Shown in pieces: positions 4,026 through 14,986 of a stretch of DNA of 64,000 bases. The position numbers and the translations under genes are program-made. Origin of the DNA: Ruegeria sp. HKCCSA071. Lineage in GTDB: Bacteria > Pseudomonadota > Alphaproteobacteria > Rhodobacterales > Rhodobacteraceae. A model generated the notes under the pieces. The model saw only the letters and a list, made by a program, of their open reading frames with translations. It made no database searches and was not told the origin of the DNA. Numbering within the stretch: the first letter of the stretch is position 1; the number at the start of each line of letters is the position of its first letter. The DNA lies in NCBI RefSeq assembly GCF_017872555.1, contig NZ_JAEDOX010000001.1, positions 1,426,001-1,490,000 on the forward strand, written 5' to 3'.

Positions 4026-4730
4026 GTGAACCTCCGTAAGAAGATTGCAGACAGTGAAGCTGTGCTAAACTGGGTGGCGCGTCGGATTGCAAACTATATT
4101 CGGCTGGTACACCGCAACACACGATGGCAGCGCATCGGCTATGACGAACTGGACCAATTGGCCGAACAGGGTGAGCCGGTCATCGTTGTTCTCTGGCACC
4201 AACGGCTGGCGCAGTCGCCCTATTTCTTCCCGCTGGACAAGGGGCGCATCTGTTCGATTACATCTTCTGCGCGGGCTGGCAGCATGGTGGGTCGCGTGCA
4301 GAAGCTGTTCGGAATGGACACGATTGCCATGTCCAGTCATCAACGCCACGTGGCATTGTCGCGCGAAGTGCTTGGCAAAATGAAACAGGGAATATCCATT
4401 GGCATAGCGGCAGACGGCCCCCGTGGGCCAGAGCGGGTTTTGTCGACGGTTCCGCTGGTTTGGGCGCGCGCATCGGGTAAACGTGTGTTTGGTATTACCT
4501 TTTCGGCGAAACATGGGCGCGAAGCAGGAACATGGGATCATCTTTTGATGCCCCGCCCATGGGGTAACCAGGGGGTGTTTCTGTGCCGGGAATGGACGGA
4601 AACAGTTCCGCGCAAAGCCAGTGAAGACGAAATCGAAACGCTGCGCCAAAGCCTTGAGCAGCATATGAACGATATCACGGCCGAGGCAGACCGAATGGTC
4701 GGGCGCGAGCCTTGGTCGCCTGACGCTTAA
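4026..4730 (+). CDS. DUF374 lysophospholipid acyltransferase-like protein
   Basis: A 234-aa protein of the DUF374 (lysophospholipid acyltransferase-like) family. His58 in VVLWHQRL stands where acyltransferases have their catalytic H-x4-D box, and ADGPRGP at about residues 129-135 is the family's second hallmark. Family members are thought to modify lipid A or lysophospholipids at the membrane; the exact acceptor is unknown. The GTG start has AGAAGGA about 8 nt upstream. Its stop overlaps the stop of the convergent moaD-like gene (they share TTAA at 4727-4730), so neither has a private terminator between them. Confidence 0.85.
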   Translation: MNLRKKIADSEAVLNWVARRIANYIRLVHRNTRWQRIGYDELDQLAEQGEPVIVVLWHQRLAQSPYFFPLDKGRICSITSSARAGSMVGRVQKLFGMDTIAMSSHQRHVALSREVLGKMKQGISIGIAADGPRGPERVLSTVPLVWARASGKRVFGITFSAKHGREAGTWDHLLMPRPWGNQGVFLCREWTETVPRKASEDEIETLRQSLEQHMNDITAEADRMVGREPWSPDA

Positions 4731-4972
4731 CCGCCTCTCAACCTTTGCATCAGATAGACTTCACTGCCCTCGGGAATTGGTTCGGTCAGTCCGGTCGCGA
4801 TCACGCGCCCGTCGACAGCGATAGACACGCCAGCGTCGATGGGTGCCTGAAGCTGCGGATGCGCACGCACGAGCGCGCGCAGCAACTCTCCGGTGGTTTT
4901 GGCCTCGACCTCAACCACCTGCTGACCCCCGGTCAGTGACCGGAGGCCGGACCAGAGGTGAACCTCAACCAT
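4727..4972 (-). CDS. MoaD/ThiS-family sulfur-carrier protein
   Basis: An 81-aa beta-grasp protein ending in the diglycine tail (QRLRGG) that is adenylated and thiocarboxylated in MoaD and ThiS. MoaD donates sulfur for the molybdopterin dithiolene. The start overlaps the end of the molybdenum-hydroxylase large-subunit gene by 8 nt, so the two are co-translated. That placement suggests a dedicated supply of cofactor sulfur for this hydroxylase rather than a thiamine role. It is the last gene of the dehalogenase/hydroxylase operon. Confidence 0.8.
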   Translation of the reverse strand: MVEVHLWSGLRSLTGGQQVVEVEAKTTGELLRALVRAHPQLQAPIDAGVSIAVDGRVIATGLTEPIPEGSEVYLMQRLRGG

Positions 4973-7220
4973 TGTCCTTGAGAGCGGCCAGAATACGTGG
5001 CGGCGACATCGGCAACCGCTTCATCCGCACGCCAGCCGCGTTGGACACAGCGTTGGCAATGGCGGCCAGTGGCGGCACGATACCCGTCTCACCCACACCG
5101 CGGACGCCAAACGGGTGGCCCGGATTCGGAACCTCGACGATCACGGTGTCGATCATCGGCAAGTCGCTGGCCACCGGGATGCGGTAGTCGAGAAAGATCG
5201 AGTTCTGCAAGCGACCGTCTTCACCGTAGATATATTCCTCGTTCAGGGCCCAGCCGATACCCTGCGCGGCACCGCCCTGATACTGGCCTTCGACATAGGT
5301 CGGATGGATCGCCTTGCCCGCGTCCTGAATGACCGTGTAGCGGGTCACACTGGTCTTACCGGTTTCCGGGTCAACCTCGGCATCCACGATGTGGGTGCCA
5401 AAGGACACGCCAGCACCTTCGGGGGTTGCCTCGAAATGACCCGAGATCGGACCACCGGTGCGGCCCATATCGGCGGTGATATCGGCCAGCGGCATCGGAT
5501 CGAAATCGCCTGCATTCGGCCCTGAGGGCACTGCACAGCCATTTTCCCATTTCACCGCATCAACCGGGATGCCCCATTTGGCCGCGGCCCGTTCGCACAG
5601 TTTCTCGACCGCGTGTCTCGCAGCCTTGATTGTCGCCAGCCCTGACGCGTAGGTCACGCGAGAGCCATGGCTTACGTCATTGTAGCCCAGTGTAGCCGTA
5701 TCGGCGATGGTCACCCGGATGTTTTCATACGGGATGCCCAGAACCTCGGCCGCCATCAGGGCCATCGACGCGCGCGAGCCACCGATATCAGGCGTTCCGA
5801 CCATCACCTGAGCCGAACCATCCTCGGATAAGGCAAGCGAAACGCTGGTCTCGCCACCATGGTTAAACCAGAAGCCACAGGAAATACCGCGCCCCTGCCC
5901 CGGCTTCAGCGGAGCCGAATAATGAGGATGTGCCTTGGCTGCTTCCAGCGTTTCGACAAGACCGATGCGCTCGTAGGTCGGTCCATAGCTGGCTTTCGTG
6001 CCCTCATGCGCGGCGTTCTTCAGGCGCACCTCAACGGGGTCGAGACCCAGCTTGTTGCACAACTCGTCAATCACGGACTCGACTGCAAAGGCACCCATCG
6101 GTGCACCCGGCGCGCGGTACGCTGCCTGCTTTGGGCGGTTGGCCATCACGTCATAGCCGATCTGCTTGACGTTGGTCAGGTTGTAGGGTGCGAAGGCACA
6201 CATGGCTGTCATGTCGCCCGGCGCGCCGGGAAAGGCCCCGCCCTGCAAACGGAAAATACCCTGAGCCGCCGAGATCGTGCCGTCTTTCTTCATGCCGATC
6301 TTGACGTCCATCGAGGCAGACGAAGTCGGACCAGTAGCCCGGAACACCTCGGACCGGGTCATCACAAGCTTGACCGGGCGATTGGCCTTACGGCTGAGCG
6401 CTAGTGCGACGGGCTCGATGAAAACGGTTGTCTTACCGCCAAACCCTCCGCCGATCTCAGACGCAGTGACGCGCAACTGCGAGGTTTCAATTCCCAGAAG
6501 CGCAGCACAGGTTTTCTGCGCAATCCAATGCCCTTGTGTCGTGCACCACAACTCACCCTTGCCGTCATTACCCAATATGGCCAGACAGGCGTGAGGTTCA
6601 ATATAACCCTGATGCGTCGCTTCGGTGACGAAACTATCTTCGATGATCAGATCAGCTTCGGCAAATCCGGCCTCGAGATCACCGTGACCACTTTCATGAT
6701 AACGGACAACGTTCGGGTGCATTCCTTCCGGCACGGAATAATCCGCCGCCCCTTCGCGGATCACGGGCGCATCCGGTGCCATCGCCTTATCCACATCGGT
6801 GACGTGGGGCAGAACTTCGTACTCGACCTCGATCAACTTGAGCGCGTCACGCGCCGCCAATGCTGAAGTCGCAGCGACCGCTGCAACTGCGTGCCCGTCA
6901 TATAGCGCTTTCTCACCGGCCATAACGTTTTCCAGAACGTTATAGAATTCACCTTCCAGACCGGGCTTGAACGGCACGTCAGCAAAGTCGGCGCGCGTCA
7001 CAACAGCTTTGACATCCTTGTGCGCCTCGGCTTTCGACGCATCAATTTTCACGATCCGCGCATGCGCATGTGGTGAGCGCAGGATCGCGCCATGCAGCAT
7101 TCCCGGGGCGTAGGCATCCGCACCGAATTTGGCGCGGCCGGTCACCTTGTCCAGACCGTCGGGACGGTTGGGGCGGGTGCCGACAAAAGTGAAGTCTGAT
7201 TTACGATCGTCCAGAGCCAT
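4965..7220 (-). CDS. Xanthine-dehydrogenase-family molybdenum hydroxylase, Moco subunit
   Basis: A 751-aa large subunit of the CoxL/XdhB type. It binds molybdopterin cytosine dinucleotide or similar and hydroxylates an aromatic or heterocyclic carbon with water as oxygen source. Visible motifs are GGGFGGK near residue 258, AYRAPGAP near 368 and GVGETGIVPPLAAIANAV near 706, where the Glu is the general base. The AYRAPGAP loop differs from the AYRCSFR loop of true CO dehydrogenase, so this is not a CO dehydrogenase. The start shares one base with the stop of the 2Fe-2S subunit gene. The substrate is not predictable from sequence. Confidence 0.93.
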   Translation of the reverse strand: MALDDRKSDFTFVGTRPNRPDGLDKVTGRAKFGADAYAPGMLHGAILRSPHAHARIVKIDASKAEAHKDVKAVVTRADFADVPFKPGLEGEFYNVLENVMAGEKALYDGHAVAAVAATSALAARDALKLIEVEYEVLPHVTDVDKAMAPDAPVIREGAADYSVPEGMHPNVVRYHESGHGDLEAGFAEADLIIEDSFVTEATHQGYIEPHACLAILGNDGKGELWCTTQGHWIAQKTCAALLGIETSQLRVTASEIGGGFGGKTTVFIEPVALALSRKANRPVKLVMTRSEVFRATGPTSSASMDVKIGMKKDGTISAAQGIFRLQGGAFPGAPGDMTAMCAFAPYNLTNVKQIGYDVMANRPKQAAYRAPGAPMGAFAVESVIDELCNKLGLDPVEVRLKNAAHEGTKASYGPTYERIGLVETLEAAKAHPHYSAPLKPGQGRGISCGFWFNHGGETSVSLALSEDGSAQVMVGTPDIGGSRASMALMAAEVLGIPYENIRVTIADTATLGYNDVSHGSRVTYASGLATIKAARHAVEKLCERAAAKWGIPVDAVKWENGCAVPSGPNAGDFDPMPLADITADMGRTGGPISGHFEATPEGAGVSFGTHIVDAEVDPETGKTSVTRYTVIQDAGKAIHPTYVEGQYQGGAAQGIGWALNEEYIYGEDGRLQNSIFLDYRIPVASDLPMIDTVIVEVPNPGHPFGVRGVGETGIVPPLAAIANAVSNAAGVRMKRLPMSPPRILAALKDNG

Positions 7221-7699
7221 TACGACGCCTCCCGCATCTCAGCCGCCGTATCCATTACGGCGCGAATGATCTTGTCATATCCAGTACAACGGCAGAGGTT
7301 GCCTGCCAGCCAATACCGCGTCTCTTCCTCGGTCGGGTTCGGGTTTTTCTCCAGCAACGACTTGGCCGCCACCAGAATGCCCGGCGTGCAGATGCCGCAT
7401 TGCAGGGCAGCGTATTCGATCATCTTCTTTTGCAGCGGATGCAGAATATCACCGTCGGCAATGCCTTCGACCGTTTCGATCTGCTTACCTTCAGCCTCGA
7501 CACCCAGCATCAGGCATGAACAGACCAGACGGCCATCAACGGTGACCGAACACGCGCCGCAATCGCCGGTGCCACACCCTTCTTTCGCACCAGTCAGGTT
7601 CAGCTTGTCGCGCAGACAATCCAGCAGAGTTTCACGCGGATCACACAGGTATTCGACCGCATCGCCATTCACGGTGGTTGTTACGTGAAACTTTTTCAT
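7220..7699 (-). CDS. Molybdenum hydroxylase 2Fe-2S subunit
   Basis: A 159-aa CoxS-type subunit with two 2Fe-2S clusters. The plant-type ferredoxin cluster uses Cys42, Cys47, Cys50 and Cys62; the C-terminal four-helix cluster uses Cys101, Cys104, Cys136 and Cys138 (CGICTPG and CRCTGY). It relays electrons from the molybdenum site to the FAD subunit. It overlaps the FAD-subunit gene by 4 nt (ATGA) and the large-subunit gene by 1 nt, the standard M-S-L order of this family. Confidence 0.95.
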   Translation of the reverse strand: MKKFHVTTTVNGDAVEYLCDPRETLLDCLRDKLNLTGAKEGCGTGDCGACSVTVDGRLVCSCLMLGVEAEGKQIETVEGIADGDILHPLQKKMIEYAALQCGICTPGILVAAKSLLEKNPNPTEEETRYWLAGNLCRCTGYDKIIRAVMDTAAEMREAS

Positions 7700-8562
7700 G
7701 CGTCTTCTCCCTTCGCGCGGGCATAGGCAATTTTCGCGGCGCGCTTGGCCAGAACGCCCGCGACCTCGGTGCGGAACGCAATCGTGCCGCGCTTGTCGTC
7801 AATCGGGTTACAGGCGGCGGAGGCAGCGGCGGCCAGCGCCTCCATGGACGCATCATCCAGCGTGCTGCCGATAATGGCCTTGGCACAGTCTTCGACCAGC
7901 AGAACGGTTGGGGCCACGGCGCCCAGTGATACGCGGGCCTCAGTGATGGTGTCACCGTCAAGACGCAGGTTCACACCAACGCCAACCACCGCGATGTCCA
8001 TTTCGGTGCGGGGGATAAACCGCAGATAGGCATCGCCGCCGTTTTCACCACGCGCAGGGATATTGACCGCCGAGATCAGTTCGCCTTTGGCCAGTGAGGT
8101 TTTGCCGGGGCCGGTCGGAATATCCTCGACCGCGACTTCGCGAGTGCCGTCCCGGCCGGTCACGGTGACAGTTACACCAGCTGCGACCATGGCGGGCACG
8201 GAATCAGCCGCAGGTGAGCCGTTACACAGGTTACCAGTCGGTGTTGCACGCCCCTGCACCTGTGTTGATCCGATCAGGTCCATCGCCTCGACCACACCGG
8301 GCCAGTCACGACCCAACTCGGGATGCTCGCTCATTTCGGCACCGGTTGCGGCAATTCCCAACGTCCAGCTTCCATCAGCGTTGCGGGTGATGTCGCGTAC
8401 ACCGTTGATTTTCTTGATGTCGATCAGCGTATCAGGCGTCACCAACTCCGAGCGCAGCTGCACCAATACGTCGGTGCCGCCCGCCAGAAAGCGCGTGATG
8501 CCCGTCGCATTTGCGGCCAGAGCCGAAGCCTCGGCAAAGCTGGCGGGGCTGTGATAATCCAT
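7696..8562 (-). CDS. Molybdenum hydroxylase FAD-binding subunit
   Basis: A 288-aa CoxM-type subunit. FAD-binding loops are AGGTD at about residues 27-31 and TGNLCNGSPAADS at about 100-112. It accepts electrons from the 2Fe-2S subunit and passes them to an acceptor. I chose the ATG at 8562, which has GAGGTAG 5 nt upstream, over the upstream in-frame start at 8577. It lies 125 bp downstream of the reductive dehalogenase gene on the same strand with no obvious terminator between, so the two are likely co-transcribed. Confidence 0.92.
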   Translation of the reverse strand: MDYHSPASFAEASALAANATGITRFLAGGTDVLVQLRSELVTPDTLIDIKKINGVRDITRNADGSWTLGIAATGAEMSEHPELGRDWPGVVEAMDLIGSTQVQGRATPTGNLCNGSPAADSVPAMVAAGVTVTVTGRDGTREVAVEDIPTGPGKTSLAKGELISAVNIPARGENGGDAYLRFIPRTEMDIAVVGVGVNLRLDGDTITEARVSLGAVAPTVLLVEDCAKAIIGSTLDDASMEALAAAASAACNPIDDKRGTIAFRTEVAGVLAKRAAKIAYARAKGEDA

Positions 8563-8687
8563 AATGCTACCTCGCACCTGTTGGTCAGGGATATCTGGGT
8601 TCGGGGCGACGTTAATTCACCACCCACCTGACGTCCATGGGCCGAGCGACCAAATTTCACCGTCCAAAGGTCGCTTTCTGACCATGC

Positions 8688-11600
8688 TTACAGATCGAGC
8701 TCGATCACACCATCCGGCTCCGCAGCGCGGCTTTGGCACAGAATCATGGCCCCTTGGCGCTGCTTTTTGGACAGCACGAAATCCCGATGCTCGACCTCGC
8801 CCGAAAGGAAGCCACATTTGCACACACCACAGATACCATCGGCGCATTTCACATCTACGTGAAAACCCGCCTCGTTCAGAACCTGCGCGGCATCCTTGTC
8901 TGCGGGAACCGGCAGCGTCTTCCCTGAATGCGCGAGTTTCAGGGTAAATGGATGATTTTCGTATTCCGGGGTTTCCGGGACCGAGAAATATTCAAGATGT
9001 CGCGCCTCTTCGGGGAAACCCTGATGTTCTGCGGCCTGCATGACCCCATCCATGTACCGATCAGGCCCGCACGTATAGACGTGCCATCCCTGCTGATACC
9101 CCGACAGGATTGCATCCAGATCAGCACGCGTGCCTTCATCCGAGAAATGGTAGTGGACGCGGTTCGCCCAGGGCATCCCCGCCAGATCATCCAGATACCC
9201 CGCGCCGCCCCGCGTGCTGGCCGAGTAGTGCAACTCGAAATCCATGCCCAATGCGTGCAGGCGATGAGCAAAAGCAATCATCGGAGTGATACCGATACCA
9301 CCCCCCATCAAAAAGGTTTTGGACGCCTCTTCATCCAGTTCGAAATGGTTGATCGGTTTCGAGATGAAAACCTTGCGCCCTTCGTTGAAAATTCGGTGCA
9401 GCAAGGCCGAGCCACCCCGCCCTGCATCCTCGCGCAGAACACCGATCTGATAGGTTCCCCGCTCCGACGGGTCGCCGGACATGGAGTATTGGCGCAGGAA
9501 CTCTGGCGCGACAAGCACATCCAGATGCGCACCTGCGGACCATTCAGGAAGCGGTGCACCGTCAAGGGCGGCAAATTCATACTTGGTGACGTCGGCGGTC
9601 ATCTTGTCGACCTTGGTCACAGCGACCCGCATTACCGGCGCGTCACCTGCGACCTGATAGCGATGAATGATCGACATATCCCCCGCAGCTTTGCGCGCCT
9701 TGTATTCTTCGGCCGTCACCAAAGCCTCATAGGCGGCAATTCCTGCCTCGCGATCCATTGCAAACGGATAGGGCCAGGGATGCGGGGCCAGATAGGCGGG
9801 GTAGACCGCCAATGTCTGATCCTCGTATCTAAGGTCCAGTTCCTTTTGCAGATCGCGCCGGTTCAAAGGGTGTGTAGTTGGCCGATACGCCCCGTCGGGC
9901 TGCAACTCGATATCCCACCACCATTTCTTGGTGTCGTTCAAACCACCATTGCCAACCGCATCATCCAGCTTGGCCAACGCTGGCGCCGCCGAGGGGATGT
10001 TCATCGCGGCCCAGCGGAATGGGCGTTCCTTGAAGATACCCTCAAGGTTCCAGGGGCAGGTCTTCATGCACCGCCCGCACATCGCGCCACCCGGAGTGGT
10101 CACGCGATAGGTCGCGCATTTCTGACTGTCGGATTTCCAGATTTCATAGCCGTTGAACATCAGCTTTGGCCCAGCTGTGATCGCGCCCGAAGGGCATTCG
10201 CGGGCGCATTTGTTGCAAGATTCGCAAAAGCTTTGCAGACCGAAATCAATGGGCCTGTCATGCGTGATCGGCATATCGGTGGTCACCACGCCTGATTTCA
10301 GGCGCGGTCCCAGATAGGGGTTCAGGATAACTTCTCCGATCCGGCTGACCTCGCCCAACCCCGAGAGCAGCAACAGCGGCGGTTGCAGCACCTCGCCATC
10401 CATCACCGTATGCGCCTTGGCCTTGTAGCCCAGGTTGCGGATCTGCTGCGCAATCACCCCGCCCAGCAGCGAAAACCGCAGATAGGCCCGCATAGATTGT
10501 GCGACGCTGATCCAGTCATCACCGCTGGCACCCTCCATCGTCTCATAGCCCTGATCGATGATCATGCTGACGGCCTGATCATGGGGCGGTACGATTTCTT
10601 CGCCTGTCGCGTCATGGGAATACCAGGCCCATTCTGGGCACCGGCTGAGACCCACCGCATCGACCCCAAGAAAATAGGTCGCAGCCTTGATGTTTGCAGC
10701 GTTGCGTTGCGCGTCAGATGGCTTGGTCGCGTCAGCACTTTCACCGTCCTGCAACAGTACAAACGCACCCAAAGCACGGCGTTGGGCAAAGCTGGGCGCG
10801 GCCTTGCGCACGTAGTACCCGCCTTTCGCGGCGTCCTGCAATGGCTTCCCCATGTCGCCGAACTGGGCGCGGGCGAACATGTCGGCGCGCTTGGGAACGC
10901 GGGCAACGTTCTCTTCGTCGATATAGGTTGTCGGGGTTTCGACCCGTTTGAGCTTTTCGAAGGGATGGGCCCCGTCCACATAGCGTCGTTTGGCATATGG
11001 ATCACGGTTGAGGGCGTTCTTGGCAAAGCCCGTTCCCAACCACCATGCTGGCCCCTGCGTCTGAAACCAAGGCTGATCGGCCATAGGCTTCAGCGGTTTT
11101 TCATGGGCGATCGGCATGTCAGTCGTCACAGCGGCCAAACCAAAGCGCTTGCCCAGCCAGGGCACGACGACCGCTCCATCTTCGACCGAAGCCAACCCGG
11201 CGGCGACCGCCAGCTTGCCCAAATCAACGTCGGTCGACATCATGCTGTGCGCCCGCGCGTCAAAGCCCAAAAGGCGGATGTAATTGGCGATGACCACCGC
11301 GTTCTCGGTCGCCAGCAGACAGGCACGATGATCCTGCGCGCCGACAATCCAATCAGCGCCGGGTTCGAACGGGTCGGGATTGCGGTTGTGTTCGTAAAGA
11401 AAGACAATGCTGTGCCGATGGCTGTCGATCGGCTTGGGCGCGGCCTCCATACTGTCTTTCAGATCAGCCATGATGACGTCGATCCCGGATGCCAGCGTTT
11501 TGGTCTGACGTGTGCGCAACGCGTGGGCAAGCCGGTCGATATCGGGATTGCGGCGGGCGTCGGGCAACAGGGCGTCGGATGGCAGCGGTCCGCACCCCAG

Positions 11601-11900
11601 CATCGACGCATCGTTGAAATAGCCGAACGCTTTAATGTGGTTGGCCCGGTCCTGCGGATTCGATGGAACCTCGGATGCAACCGGGTTCACCATTCCGTCG
11701 CGGATGGCGTCCATCATCGCCTGAAACTCACGCATCGCATTGACGATGCTGTCAGGGTGTTCCGGTCGGTGGAAACTCAGCTCGGCCATAGGGGGCACAA
11801 GTGACAGATCCGGCATGTCTTCTTGTCGGGCCAAACGCTCCAGCGGGTAGCCGCCCATATGAACGGGCCGGTTTCTGTCCGAGAAAAAGCGGATTCCCAT
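8688..11900 (-). CDS. Self-sufficient reductive dehalogenase fused to PDR-type reductase
   Basis: A 1070-aa fusion. Residues 1 to about 690 match cytosolic catabolic reductive dehalogenases of the NpRdhA/BhbA kind: a cobalamin nitroreductase-like fold, then clusters with Cys559/562/565/569 and Cys595/608/611/615. Residues about 750-1070 form a phthalate-dioxygenase-reductase-like module with RQYSMSG (flavin), GGIGITPMI (NAD(P)H) and a C-terminal 2Fe-2S site (Cys1019, Cys1024, Cys1027, Cys1055). NAD(P)H electrons would thus reach the corrinoid in one chain. There is no Tat signal and no rdhB anchor gene, against a respiratory role. The ATG at 11900 has AGGAGA 6 nt upstream. The active site in the family uses Tyr, Lys and Arg; Tyr427 and Lys493/495 are candidates. 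The halogenated substrate is unknown. Confidence 0.92.
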   Translation of the reverse strand: MGIRFFSDRNRPVHMGGYPLERLARQEDMPDLSLVPPMAELSFHRPEHPDSIVNAMREFQAMMDAIRDGMVNPVASEVPSNPQDRANHIKAFGYFNDASMLGCGPLPSDALLPDARRNPDIDRLAHALRTRQTKTLASGIDVIMADLKDSMEAAPKPIDSHRHSIVFLYEHNRNPDPFEPGADWIVGAQDHRACLLATENAVVIANYIRLLGFDARAHSMMSTDVDLGKLAVAAGLASVEDGAVVVPWLGKRFGLAAVTTDMPIAHEKPLKPMADQPWFQTQGPAWWLGTGFAKNALNRDPYAKRRYVDGAHPFEKLKRVETPTTYIDEENVARVPKRADMFARAQFGDMGKPLQDAAKGGYYVRKAAPSFAQRRALGAFVLLQDGESADATKPSDAQRNAANIKAATYFLGVDAVGLSRCPEWAWYSHDATGEEIVPPHDQAVSMIIDQGYETMEGASGDDWISVAQSMRAYLRFSLLGGVIAQQIRNLGYKAKAHTVMDGEVLQPPLLLLSGLGEVSRIGEVILNPYLGPRLKSGVVTTDMPITHDRPIDFGLQSFCESCNKCARECPSGAITAGPKLMFNGYEIWKSDSQKCATYRVTTPGGAMCGRCMKTCPWNLEGIFKERPFRWAAMNIPSAAPALAKLDDAVGNGGLNDTKKWWWDIELQPDGAYRPTTHPLNRRDLQKELDLRYEDQTLAVYPAYLAPHPWPYPFAMDREAGIAAYEALVTAEEYKARKAAGDMSIIHRYQVAGDAPVMRVAVTKVDKMTADVTKYEFAALDGAPLPEWSAGAHLDVLVAPEFLRQYSMSGDPSERGTYQIGVLREDAGRGGSALLHRIFNEGRKVFISKPINHFELDEEASKTFLMGGGIGITPMIAFAHRLHALGMDFELHYSASTRGGAGYLDDLAGMPWANRVHYHFSDEGTRADLDAILSGYQQGWHVYTCGPDRYMDGVMQAAEHQGFPEEARHLEYFSVPETPEYENHPFTLKLAHSGKTLPVPADKDAAQVLNEAGFHVDVKCADGICGVCKCGFLSGEVEHRDFVLSKKQRQGAMILCQSRAAEPDGVIELDL

Positions 11901-11975
11901 CGCATATCTCCTGTTGATGTCCGTCCCGTACCCCGCCATGGACAGCAAATCCACTCATGGCTAATCATAAATAGT

Positions 11976-12878
11976 ATGAGCAAATTCGATTTCATTGACC
12001 TCGACGGCAAGGTTCTGCGCACTTTTTTGACGATACTCGAGGAAAGCTCGGTCTCGAAAGCTGCGGATCGGCTGGACGTCACGCAATCGGCCATAAGCCA
12101 CACGCTGGCCAAGCTCCGGCAGGTCCTGGGCGATCCGTTGTTTGTCCGGTCCGGTCAGGGCCTGACCCCGACCGAGCGCGCCTTGTCCCTGAAGGAGCCC
12201 GCGCAAAAGGTGCTGGACGGAATGCGGGCGCTGACCGACGGCCGACCGTTCGACCCGTTGTCGGAACAGATCCACATCCGCATCGCCACCAATGACATGC
12301 CACGAGAACTGATCTTTCCACAGCTGCTGCGTGACACCCGCGCCGAAGGCGTGCGCCTGCGGTTGGAGTTCATCCCATCGGGTGTGCCCGACCCCGAATT
12401 GTTGCGCAGCGACCGGTGCCAGTTGATGCTAACCCCGCTGCCGCCCGACGGACCGGATATTTTCCAGAAAAGACTGATCGAAAGCCCGCTGATGGTGTTC
12501 TACGACGCCACGCAACGCACGCCCCCGGACAGTTGGGAAGACTATTGCCACAGCGACCATGTCGAGGTGCGATTTGCCGATGGCCGAAACGCTCGCGCCG
12601 TCATGCGTGGCGTCGATCAAAGCCAGATCAGGCCAGCGGTGGTGACCCTGCCGCATTTCAACGCGATCCCGGCCTTTGTGCAGGGCGGCGACTTGATCTC
12701 GACAGATACGGCACTGATGAAACAGGGGCCGTTGGCCGTGCTTGATTGCGCACCGTTACCTTTCGCCTGCCCGCCTGTGTCCATCTATATGGTCTGGCAT
12801 CAAAGATCGACCAATGACCCCGCCCACCGCTGGTTACGCGGCCGGTTAGAAGCCATCGCAGCGTTCCTTCAGACCTGA
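11976..12878 (+). CDS. LysR regulator of the dehalogenase operon
   Basis: A 300-aa LysR protein starting MSKFDFIDLDGKVLRTFL, with the helix-turn-helix in EESSVSKAADRLDVTQSAIS and a GDPLFVRSGQGL wing; the effector domain follows. The frame can be extended upstream to 11823, but that part lies over the dehalogenase coding region and lacks homology-like features. It is divergent from the dehalogenase, with only 75 bp between the two starts, so it most likely activates that operon in response to the halogenated substrate or a breakdown product. Confidence 0.88.
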   Translation: MSKFDFIDLDGKVLRTFLTILEESSVSKAADRLDVTQSAISHTLAKLRQVLGDPLFVRSGQGLTPTERALSLKEPAQKVLDGMRALTDGRPFDPLSEQIHIRIATNDMPRELIFPQLLRDTRAEGVRLRLEFIPSGVPDPELLRSDRCQLMLTPLPPDGPDIFQKRLIESPLMVFYDATQRTPPDSWEDYCHSDHVEVRFADGRNARAVMRGVDQSQIRPAVVTLPHFNAIPAFVQGGDLISTDTALMKQGPLAVLDCAPLPFACPPVSIYMVWHQRSTNDPAHRWLRGRLEAIAAFLQT

Positions 12879-13714: not shown

Positions 13715-14986
13715 TCAGATCCGCGCTTTTATCAGATGCGTCAGTGCCGCGCCGGATTCAAAAAAGGCGCGGCGCACGCGCGTCCAGCTTTCGCGATGCT
13801 CATGCACCGCAGGAACGGGCAAAAGCGAAGGCTCACCTGCAAGAAGACTTTCGGCCATCATTCGACCGAACACCGTGCCGGGGCCAATACCACGGCCGGA
13901 ATACCCGTGCGCAGCCAGAGCGTTAGGGCCAATCTGCGTGATTTTCGGGATATGGTCCGAAGTCATGGCAATCCGACCGTGCCAACCCTGTTCAAACGGC
14001 TGATCGGCAAGCTGAGGATAAAGCTCAGCCAGTTTGCGTCGGACCCATCCGGTATGCGCGCTGCGGCCTGCATTCCCCAGATCACCCATGCCGCCAATGA
14101 TCATCCGCCCCGCCTGATCCAACCGGAAGGACGTCATGATCAGCCCTGTATCCCAGCACCCTTCTTCCTGCGGCAGGATGTTGGCGCGCAAATTATGCGA
14201 AAGCGGGGCCGTTGCGTATTGAAAGTAATAAACGGGAACATAGGCGGGCGCAGTATCTGGCAATCCTAGGTGATAGGCGTTGGTTGCCTGAATGACGGAC
14301 TTGGCCCTTACAGTCCCGCTCGGTGTGGTCAACACCCATTGCCCACCGTCGTGCCGAAGGGTCTGCACTGGACTTTGTTCATGTATCTGCGCCCCGGCCT
14401 GAGACGCGGCACGCGCCAATCCCATGACATAAGCCAAGGGTTGTATAGTTCCTGCGCGAGGGTCGAACAACGCCCCATGGAAAGCATCGCTACCGGTCCG
14501 GTCACGGGCCTGATCCGCCGACAGCAGCTCTACCGGCGCGCCAGACCCGCTTAGCTGCGCGTGGCGCGTTTGCAGATTCTTCAGCCCCGAGGCGGAATGC
14601 GCGCAATGCAGGGTTCCGTTGCGAATGGGCTCACATGCGATGCCGTGTTCTTCGATCAGGGAAAAAACGTCTGACGGTGCTTTACCCAACAAATCGATCA
14701 GCCGATCGCCAGCCTCTGCACCGATATGCGCGCGAATGTCATCCGGTGGCAGCCACAGCCCGGCATTGACCAAACCGACATTGCGCCCCGACCCGCCAAA
14801 CCCGATCTTCTGCGCTTCAAGCAAACAGACCGAAGCGCCGGTACGGGCTGCCGTCAAGGCAGCTGAACACCCGGTATATCCGCCACCTATGATGGCCAGA
14901 TCAACGGTTGTATCACTGCTCAGCGGCAGAGCCGTGACTGCTTCGGTACATGTAGTCCGCCACAGGGCTTGTTCGGGATCGTTCAC
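13715..14986 (-). CDS. DAO-type FAD-dependent amine/amino-acid oxidoreductase
   Basis: A 423-aa protein of the DadA/PuuB family. The N-terminal dinucleotide fold has LAIIGGGYTGCSAAL at about residues 30-44 and LLEAQKIGFGGSGRN after it; the C-terminus has AAHGYSGRGIGPGTVFG, which contacts the flavin. Members oxidise secondary or primary amines (for example gamma-glutamylputrescine, sarcosine or D-amino acids). The start is GTG with AGAGG 6 nt upstream. It converges on the SDR gene with 3 bp between the ends. Substrate not predictable; a polyamine link to the left-edge ureohydrolase would be speculation. Confidence 0.85.
   Translation of the reverse strand: MNDPEQALWRTTCTEAVTALPLSSDTTVDLAIIGGGYTGCSAALTAARTGASVCLLEAQKIGFGGSGRNVGLVNAGLWLPPDDIRAHIGAEAGDRLIDLLGKAPSDVFSLIEEHGIACEPIRNGTLHCAHSASGLKNLQTRHAQLSGSGAPVELLSADQARDRTGSDAFHGALFDPRAGTIQPLAYVMGLARAASQAGAQIHEQSPVQTLRHDGGQWVLTTPSGTVRAKSVIQATNAYHLGLPDTAPAYVPVYYFQYATAPLSHNLRANILPQEEGCWDTGLIMTSFRLDQAGRMIIGGMGDLGNAGRSAHTGWVRRKLAELYPQLADQPFEQGWHGRIAMTSDHIPKITQIGPNALAAHGYSGRGIGPGTVFGRMMAESLLAGEPSLLPVPAVHEHRESWTRVRRAFFESGAALTHLIKARI

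Follow-up and report, generated by a model that had tools for sequence, protein, structure and literature searches.

Full-length reductive dehalogenases (RdhA) with a C-terminal PDR domain are a class already described, and the available text of PMC10463259 counts among its members JtRdhA from Jhaorihella thermophila and an enzyme from Ruegeria pomeroyi DSS-3. According to the same excerpt, bromo- and iodophenols are dehalogenated with NADPH by a full-length enzyme of this class, which works in air too and is merely inhibited by chlorinated phenols, and JtRdhA lets E. coli W grow on 3-bromo-4-hydroxyphenylacetic acid. BhbA from Comamonas sp. 7D-2, encoded on plasmid pBHB, is 50.7% identical over the whole length to the RdhA studied here; its neighbours are genes for protocatechuate 4,5-dioxygenase, a tricarboxylate transporter and a porin, with no molybdenum hydroxylase listed beside it. 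NpRdhA (4ras, 6zxu) has, in the accessible part of PMC10463259, no fused reductase, unlike our RdhA, and the part of PMC7565698 at hand links the phenolic hydroxyl with its residues S422, K488 and R552, and proton transfer with Y426 and K488. The available portion of PMC13101508 concerns a different Roseobacter enzyme, with motifs near residues 283–345. On the side of the molybdenum hydroxylase, the closest described system is the megaplasmid cassette of R. pomeroyi DSS-3 (SPO_RS21915-21930), which has the same four genes as our locus, a CoxL that is 90% identical and the same promoter-like element; unlike our locus, it has no RdhA in the 22 kb covered, and an alpha/beta hydrolase and a tryptophan 2,3-dioxygenase (TDO) lie beside it.

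We analysed 64,000 nucleotides of Ruegeria sp. HKCCSA071 (hereafter the window), taken from a genome of 4.1 Mb. The original prediction for this DNA was that a self-sufficient RdhA and a molybdenum hydroxylase form one operon and act in one aerobic pathway on the same ring. All predicted genes were recovered at their positions (Table 1), and domain matches bear out their assignment to an RdhA fusion, a three-subunit molybdenum hydroxylase and a MoaD-like protein. The order on the minus strand is rdhA, coxM, coxS, coxL, moaD, with a LysR gene on the plus strand; LysR and rdhA are separated by 75 bp, as predicted, and rdhA and coxM by 125 bp (8563–8687). The prediction had not named the minus strand for rdhA, cox and moaD, and it had missed a conserved promoter-like element within the latter gap. 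In the available part of PMC10463259, no molybdenum hydroxylase was found as a neighbour of JtRdhA or R. pomeroyi RdhA, in contrast to the window. Searches by title, abstract start or joint phrases, with subscription literature mostly outside their reach, returned no report of an rdhA–cox neighbourhood; some Chloroflexi genome papers contain the searched words. Our preferred reading, to which we assign a probability of about 0.68, is that the locus consists of two separately controlled units placed head-to-tail, which are genus-conserved neighbours and not one new pathway.

Table 1. Features of the rdhA–cox locus, in window coordinates.
Feature	Position	Strand	Evidence
rdhA, 1070 aa, predicted self-sufficient catabolic reductive dehalogenase	8688..11900	-	NpRdhA 4ras, TIGR02486 and 2pia matches
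Putative LysR-rdhA control region with conserved CATGARTRG	11901..11975		Alignment of 38 loci (36 distinct)
LysR-type regulator, 300 aa, divergent from rdhA	11976..12878	+	Near rdhA (within 12 kb) in 32/33 Ruegeria-type named loci
Promoter-like element CATGGACG-N17-TAACGTC, upstream of coxM	8608..8639	-	32/32 linked gaps
coxM-like FAD subunit	7696..8577, likely start ATG 8562	-	FAD_binding_5 3.6e-37, CO_deh_flav_C 6.2e-24
coxS-like 2x[2Fe-2S] subunit	7220..7699	-	Fer2_2 3.8e-29, Fer2 8.3e-07
coxL-like molybdopterin subunit	4965..7220	-	MoCoBD_1/2; 1rm6 6.6e-92
MoaD/ThiS-like sulfur carrier, 81 aa, C-terminal Gly-Gly	4727..4972	-	ThiS 8.3e-07

Judged by its sequence, RdhA is a member of the known BhbA/JtRdhA-type self-sufficient catabolic class. 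It scores 191.5 bits against TIGR02486 (cut-off 160.35), while the Pfam Dehalogenase model PF13486 is absent among its matches at E ≤ 0.1. The core aligns with NpRdhA 4ras (6.2e-158) over residues 159–737 plus a stretch at 4–109, and with 6zxu over residues 2–109 and 159–736, a pattern that identifies the N-terminal part as a putative vestigial duplicated domain. The tail (757–1067) matches phthalate dioxygenase reductase 2pia (6.1e-58) and carries the motifs RQYS at 803, GGGIGITP at 866 and CADGICG at 1019. Two [4Fe-4S] motifs are formed by CESCNKCARECP at 559–570 and by C595, C608, C611 and C615. Their eight cysteines are invariant in all 204 aligned RdhA rows (194 distinct, ten genomes being present twice), and the same holds for S469, Y473, K535 and R599, the equivalents of the ortho-halophenol pocket residues S422, Y426, K488 and R552 of NpRdhA. 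The rdhA start ATG aligns in all 38 loci that have the divergent LysR gene, and by reading of the sequence no RR (Tat) motif was found after it; nor was an rdhB-like gene found among the scanned neighbours. The predicted lack of a Tat signal and of an RdhB anchor is upheld by this reading, and the locus does not have the make-up of a respiratory RdhA. By analogy with its homologues JtRdhA and NpRdhA, the enzyme in the window probably catalyses debromination and deiodination.

Enzymes of this type are frequent in the family, where an RdhA homologue is found at E=0 in 149 of 394 genomes. At E ≤ 1e-60 the number of genomes rises to 166; the 17 weaker matches were left out of the count because most of them are as strong as a hit to just the reductase tail would be (14 lie between 8e-61 and 3e-73, comparable to genome G417, in which only residues 757–1068 align). 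The linkage argument uses full-length RdhA matches only, from 120 of the 148 strong-homologue genomes other than our own and from the best 80 of 319 named relatives, among which the nearest to the window's RdhA is from a Ruegeria sp. (91%). Common neighbours of RdhA in 121 loci (the 120 and the window; 115 in the RdhA cluster) revealed no catabolic operon: the largest non-RdhA cluster, MarR-like by reading, comprises at least 15 of the 121 loci, all such counts being lower bounds from an ORF caller that also picked antisense frames. Genome G429, of the same genus, has three full-length RdhA homologues (contigs C115, C88 and C78; 86, 71 and 69% identity), and its 86% copy lies 24 kb from CoxL. 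Long open frames surround the RdhA match in G208 (1677 aa) and G340 (2585 aa), possibly high-GC frames or fusions.

The molybdenum hydroxylase genes, by comparison of gene orders, are a free-standing coxMSL-moaD cassette that is independent of RdhA. FAD, 2x[2Fe-2S] and molybdenum cofactor subunits are all present by Pfam, as in the xanthine oxidase family, and none of the NCBIfam models listed (xanthine DH, CODH, HCR and others) reaches its cut-off with CoxM, CoxS or CoxL. The best solved relative of CoxL is the alpha subunit of 4-hydroxybenzoyl-CoA reductase; CoxL carries GGGFGG at 257, and Glu 711 within GVGE, which we take to be the candidate catalytic glutamate. In the best 30 CoxL loci, the window's included, CoxS and MoaD always lie beside CoxL and CoxM does so in 29, the remaining locus (L176) ending before CoxM. 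The cassette occurs on the R. pomeroyi DSS-3 megaplasmid, where its neighbours are the alpha/beta hydrolase and TDO, and in Marivivens and Mesorhizobium plasmid records, and its S, L and MoaD genes appear in the S. meliloti pSymA record; no dehalogenase is annotated in any of these four stretches. In R. pomeroyi (L267, 2003–12500) the cassette lies downstream of hydrolase and TDO and near a divergent gene of the bifunctional salicylyl-CoA 5-hydroxylase type, and a molybdenum-dependent step in tryptophan/anthranilate catabolism is possible for this cassette. Between TDO and coxM of R. pomeroyi we also observed a hypothetical 642-aa ORF (L267, 6336–8264) made up nearly entirely of EGNEGDE-type acidic repeats.

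The linkage of rdhA and cox in relatives, on which the original prediction depended, holds within the genus (50 of 54 genomes) and largely fails outside it. All 54 genomes carry CoxL and 53 a full-length RdhA, and in the 50 adjacent pairs the CoxL–RdhA distance is near-constant (1462–1504 bases). The exceptions are G429, with its 24 kb, G430 and G437, where a more distant RdhA lies on a separate contig, and G439, which has retained cox and in which RdhA was not found. Among the family loci, the cassette follows within 8 kb downstream in 3 of 120, namely in G043 (again of the same genus), G228 and G389, and 30 of the 80 named loci have it directly beside RdhA, although a cassette could escape notice in loci that stop within 6 kb after RdhA, as 9 of the 120 and 7 of the 80 do. 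Of these 30, 27 are titled Ruegeria, the others being KLH11, Silicibacter lacuscaerulensis and one MAG; in L211 the cassette lies 8 kb from RdhA. XDH-like genes in L042, L045, L091 and L145 are remote (22–45% identity), lie on the other side of RdhA and were excluded as cassettes. Across 33 Ruegeria-type loci, cox is retained in 30 and the next downstream gene, LPAAT, in 19; upstream, a DAO-type oxidase (31), an acyl-CoA dehydrogenase (ACAD; 30) and a 2-oxoacid dehydrogenase E1 (30) are kept about as well as cox, and 32 of the 33 named loci of this type have a LysR gene no more than 12 kb from rdhA. In a raw hand tally that ignores kinship, 28 of 38 family genomes with a CoxL of at least 80% identity have RdhA, against 149 of 394 overall, a comparison that speaks against our reading. 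The linkage is a real and long-standing feature of one genus, but it is not general.

The control regions speak for a division between the two genes. We compared the linked rdhA–coxM gaps of the window, of G043 and of 30 named loci, 32 in total and 30 distinct in sequence; each contains the promoter-like element, 30 of them exactly and L210 and L212 as near variants. Its spacer always measures 17 bases and varies in sequence, as in a promoter, and in the window it lies at -62 from coxM. Furthermore, 11 of 30 cassette copies that are not directly adjacent to RdhA have the element (score 11–16 of 16) at -60 to -68 from coxM, perfectly so in R. pomeroyi and L211; of 32 upstream regions taken, those of L176 and L178 were left out for too little sequence. 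Among these 11, RdhA lies within about 20 kb in G228, G389, G038 and L211 and was not seen within that distance in the other seven. Single-base shuffles gave p 0.003–0.056 for the 11 matches. The other 19 regions score below 11 at that position, and as four of them reach 11–12 elsewhere, the argument depends on where the element lies, the score on its own being weak. By contrast, the sequence CATGARTRG of the LysR–rdhA gap is present in 37 of 38 loci (all but L210) and absent from all 32 rdhA–coxM gaps. A CGAC..GTCG dyad in the latter (28 of 32 linked gaps) was rejected as proof, being weak with 3 of 30 non-adjacent copies against 1.1 expected. We infer an active promoter at the element, and control of rdhA by the LysR protein. 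A generic sigma-70 scan flagged neither a promoter, at the element or elsewhere, nor a terminator-like site in the rdhA–coxM gap, so that some read-through from rdhA into coxM may occur.

Gene orders in relatives suggest how the two units may have come together. TDO and CoxL are paired at least in R. pomeroyi, G031, G038, G073, G110 and L211. The cassettes of G031, G073 and G110, like that of R. pomeroyi, come after TDO, and in these three genomes RdhA is on another contig or 130 kb off. In G038 RdhA and cassette share a contig at a distance of 18 kb, with the tryptophan/anthranilate genes of L211, among others, in between. The order in L211 is RdhA, then convergent CoA ligase, ACAD, enoyl-CoA hydratase and MarR genes, then the hydrolase, TDO and coxMSL. 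G228 has the alpha/beta hydrolase and one further gene between rdhA and coxM, G389 has the hydrolase alone, and in Ruegeria no gene intervenes. We dropped the name kynurenine formamidase for this hydrolase, as NCBIfam calls it HaHSL (hormone-sensitive lipase); the role is context only. In a tree of 93 chosen RdhA rows, built with a quick method, all 32 adjacent rows fall into one 38-row clade (SH-aLRT 95), the rest of which comprises the three rows with cox nearby, G228, L211 and G038, and three unlinked rows. G389, where cox is also near, falls outside this clade at an unresolved fork, which counts against our reading. These orders are most simply explained if the genes in between were lost step by step; adjacency would then have a single origin, with gene losses running in the direction of Ruegeria.

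How far does this evidence allow the operon and pathway originally proposed, in which RdhA would remove the halogen and the molybdenum enzyme would hydroxylate the same ring? The two genes lie on the same strand, the gap between them holds no terminator-like site by the generic scan, and their adjacency at near-constant distance in 50 of 54 genomes is a degree of retention that counts against two separate units. A promoter-like element conserved in that gap and shared with some non-adjacent cassettes argues, as far as sequence can tell, against a single operon, as do the absence of the conserved LysR–rdhA sequence from the rdhA–coxM gaps and the fact that outside the genus cassette and RdhA are mostly apart. 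Moreover, the usual targets of molybdenum hydroxylases of this family are electron-poor N-heterocycles or aldehydes, and phenols are unusual substrates for them. Nothing in the analysis shows the molybdenum enzyme acting on a halophenol. Neither the single operon nor the single pathway is supported, and we regard the whole proposal as quite unlikely. A different form of cooperation can be conceived, in which the Ruegeria enzymes would be a working pair for tryptophan-derived halogenated hydroxy-N-heteroaromatics, among them halogenated kynurenates or 4-hydroxyquinolines. The hydroxyl and the halogen ortho to it would be recognised by the RdhA pocket, hydroxylation of the electron-poor ring would fall to the molybdenum enzyme, and with two independent promoters each could be used separately. 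This would fit both chemistries and the position of the cassette beside the tryptophan island in relatives, yet we give it very little credence, and any joint dehalogenation–hydroxylation pathway is unlikely.

The genes upstream raise another possibility, namely that rdhA and cox are both part of a larger island that acts on halogenated aromatic amino acids, where an aminotransferase, E1 and the DAO-type oxidase would process the side chain, RdhA would dehalogenate a phenol resembling bromo- or iodotyrosine, and cox would serve the neighbouring tryptophan/kynurenine branch. Indeed, 36 loci (34 distinct; e.g. L031, 16187–18442) carry a fused alpha/beta E1 2-oxoacid dehydrogenase gene upstream of RdhA on the same strand, with midpoints 4.6–7.9 kb apart, and both E1 and the DAO-type oxidase are also near RdhA in genomes where cox is not adjacent. 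Together with the high retention of these two genes in Ruegeria-type loci, the cassettes found after TDO and the growth on 3-bromo-4-hydroxyphenylacetic acid that JtRdhA supports in E. coli W (available part of PMC10463259), this context hints at halogenated aromatic amino acids, though the enzymes are generic. E1, the DAO-type oxidase and the aminotransferase (for the latter, among the best 25 models) stay below NCBIfam cut-offs, an aminotransferase is near RdhA in just 9 of the 33 Ruegeria-type loci, and most RdhA loci have no common neighbour. In addition, the window yielded no E1, and the best copy of this genome (76%) is on another contig (G000:C8:15366-17540). We consider such an island unlikely. 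The window does encode, at 13715–14986 on the minus strand, a DAO-type oxidase like L-pipecolate oxidase AmaA (430 bits, cut-off 600).

Altogether, the reading as two separately controlled units accounts best for these data: rdhA and cox are probably mere neighbours, because a separate conserved control region precedes each of them and cox cassettes also occur without a dehalogenase. The first unit would be a LysR-controlled, cytosolic and oxygen-tolerant catabolic reductive dehalogenase, in which electrons would pass from NAD(P)H to FMN and the [2Fe-2S] cluster of its own tail, then to the two [4Fe-4S] clusters and to cobalamin, which, by analogy with JtRdhA and NpRdhA, may remove bromine or iodine ortho to the phenolic hydroxyl. 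The second unit, coxMSL-moaD, would act as a stand-alone molybdenum hydroxylase cassette under its own conserved promoter-like region, and the two would share no pathway. The adjacency may have a single origin in the Ruegeria lineage, where rdhA would have ended up upstream of an island for tryptophan/anthranilate catabolism with cox at its end; the genes between rdhA and cox would then have been lost, and vertical inheritance would have kept the pair together.

In summary, the claim of a new dehalogenation–hydroxylation pathway is unsupported, and the genus-wide rdhA–cox pairing offers a cheap test of whether neighbouring genes share a pathway or merely a place. The family includes many marine bacteria, and as this type of RdhA is common among its genomes, the enzyme bears on the natural cycling of bromine and iodine.
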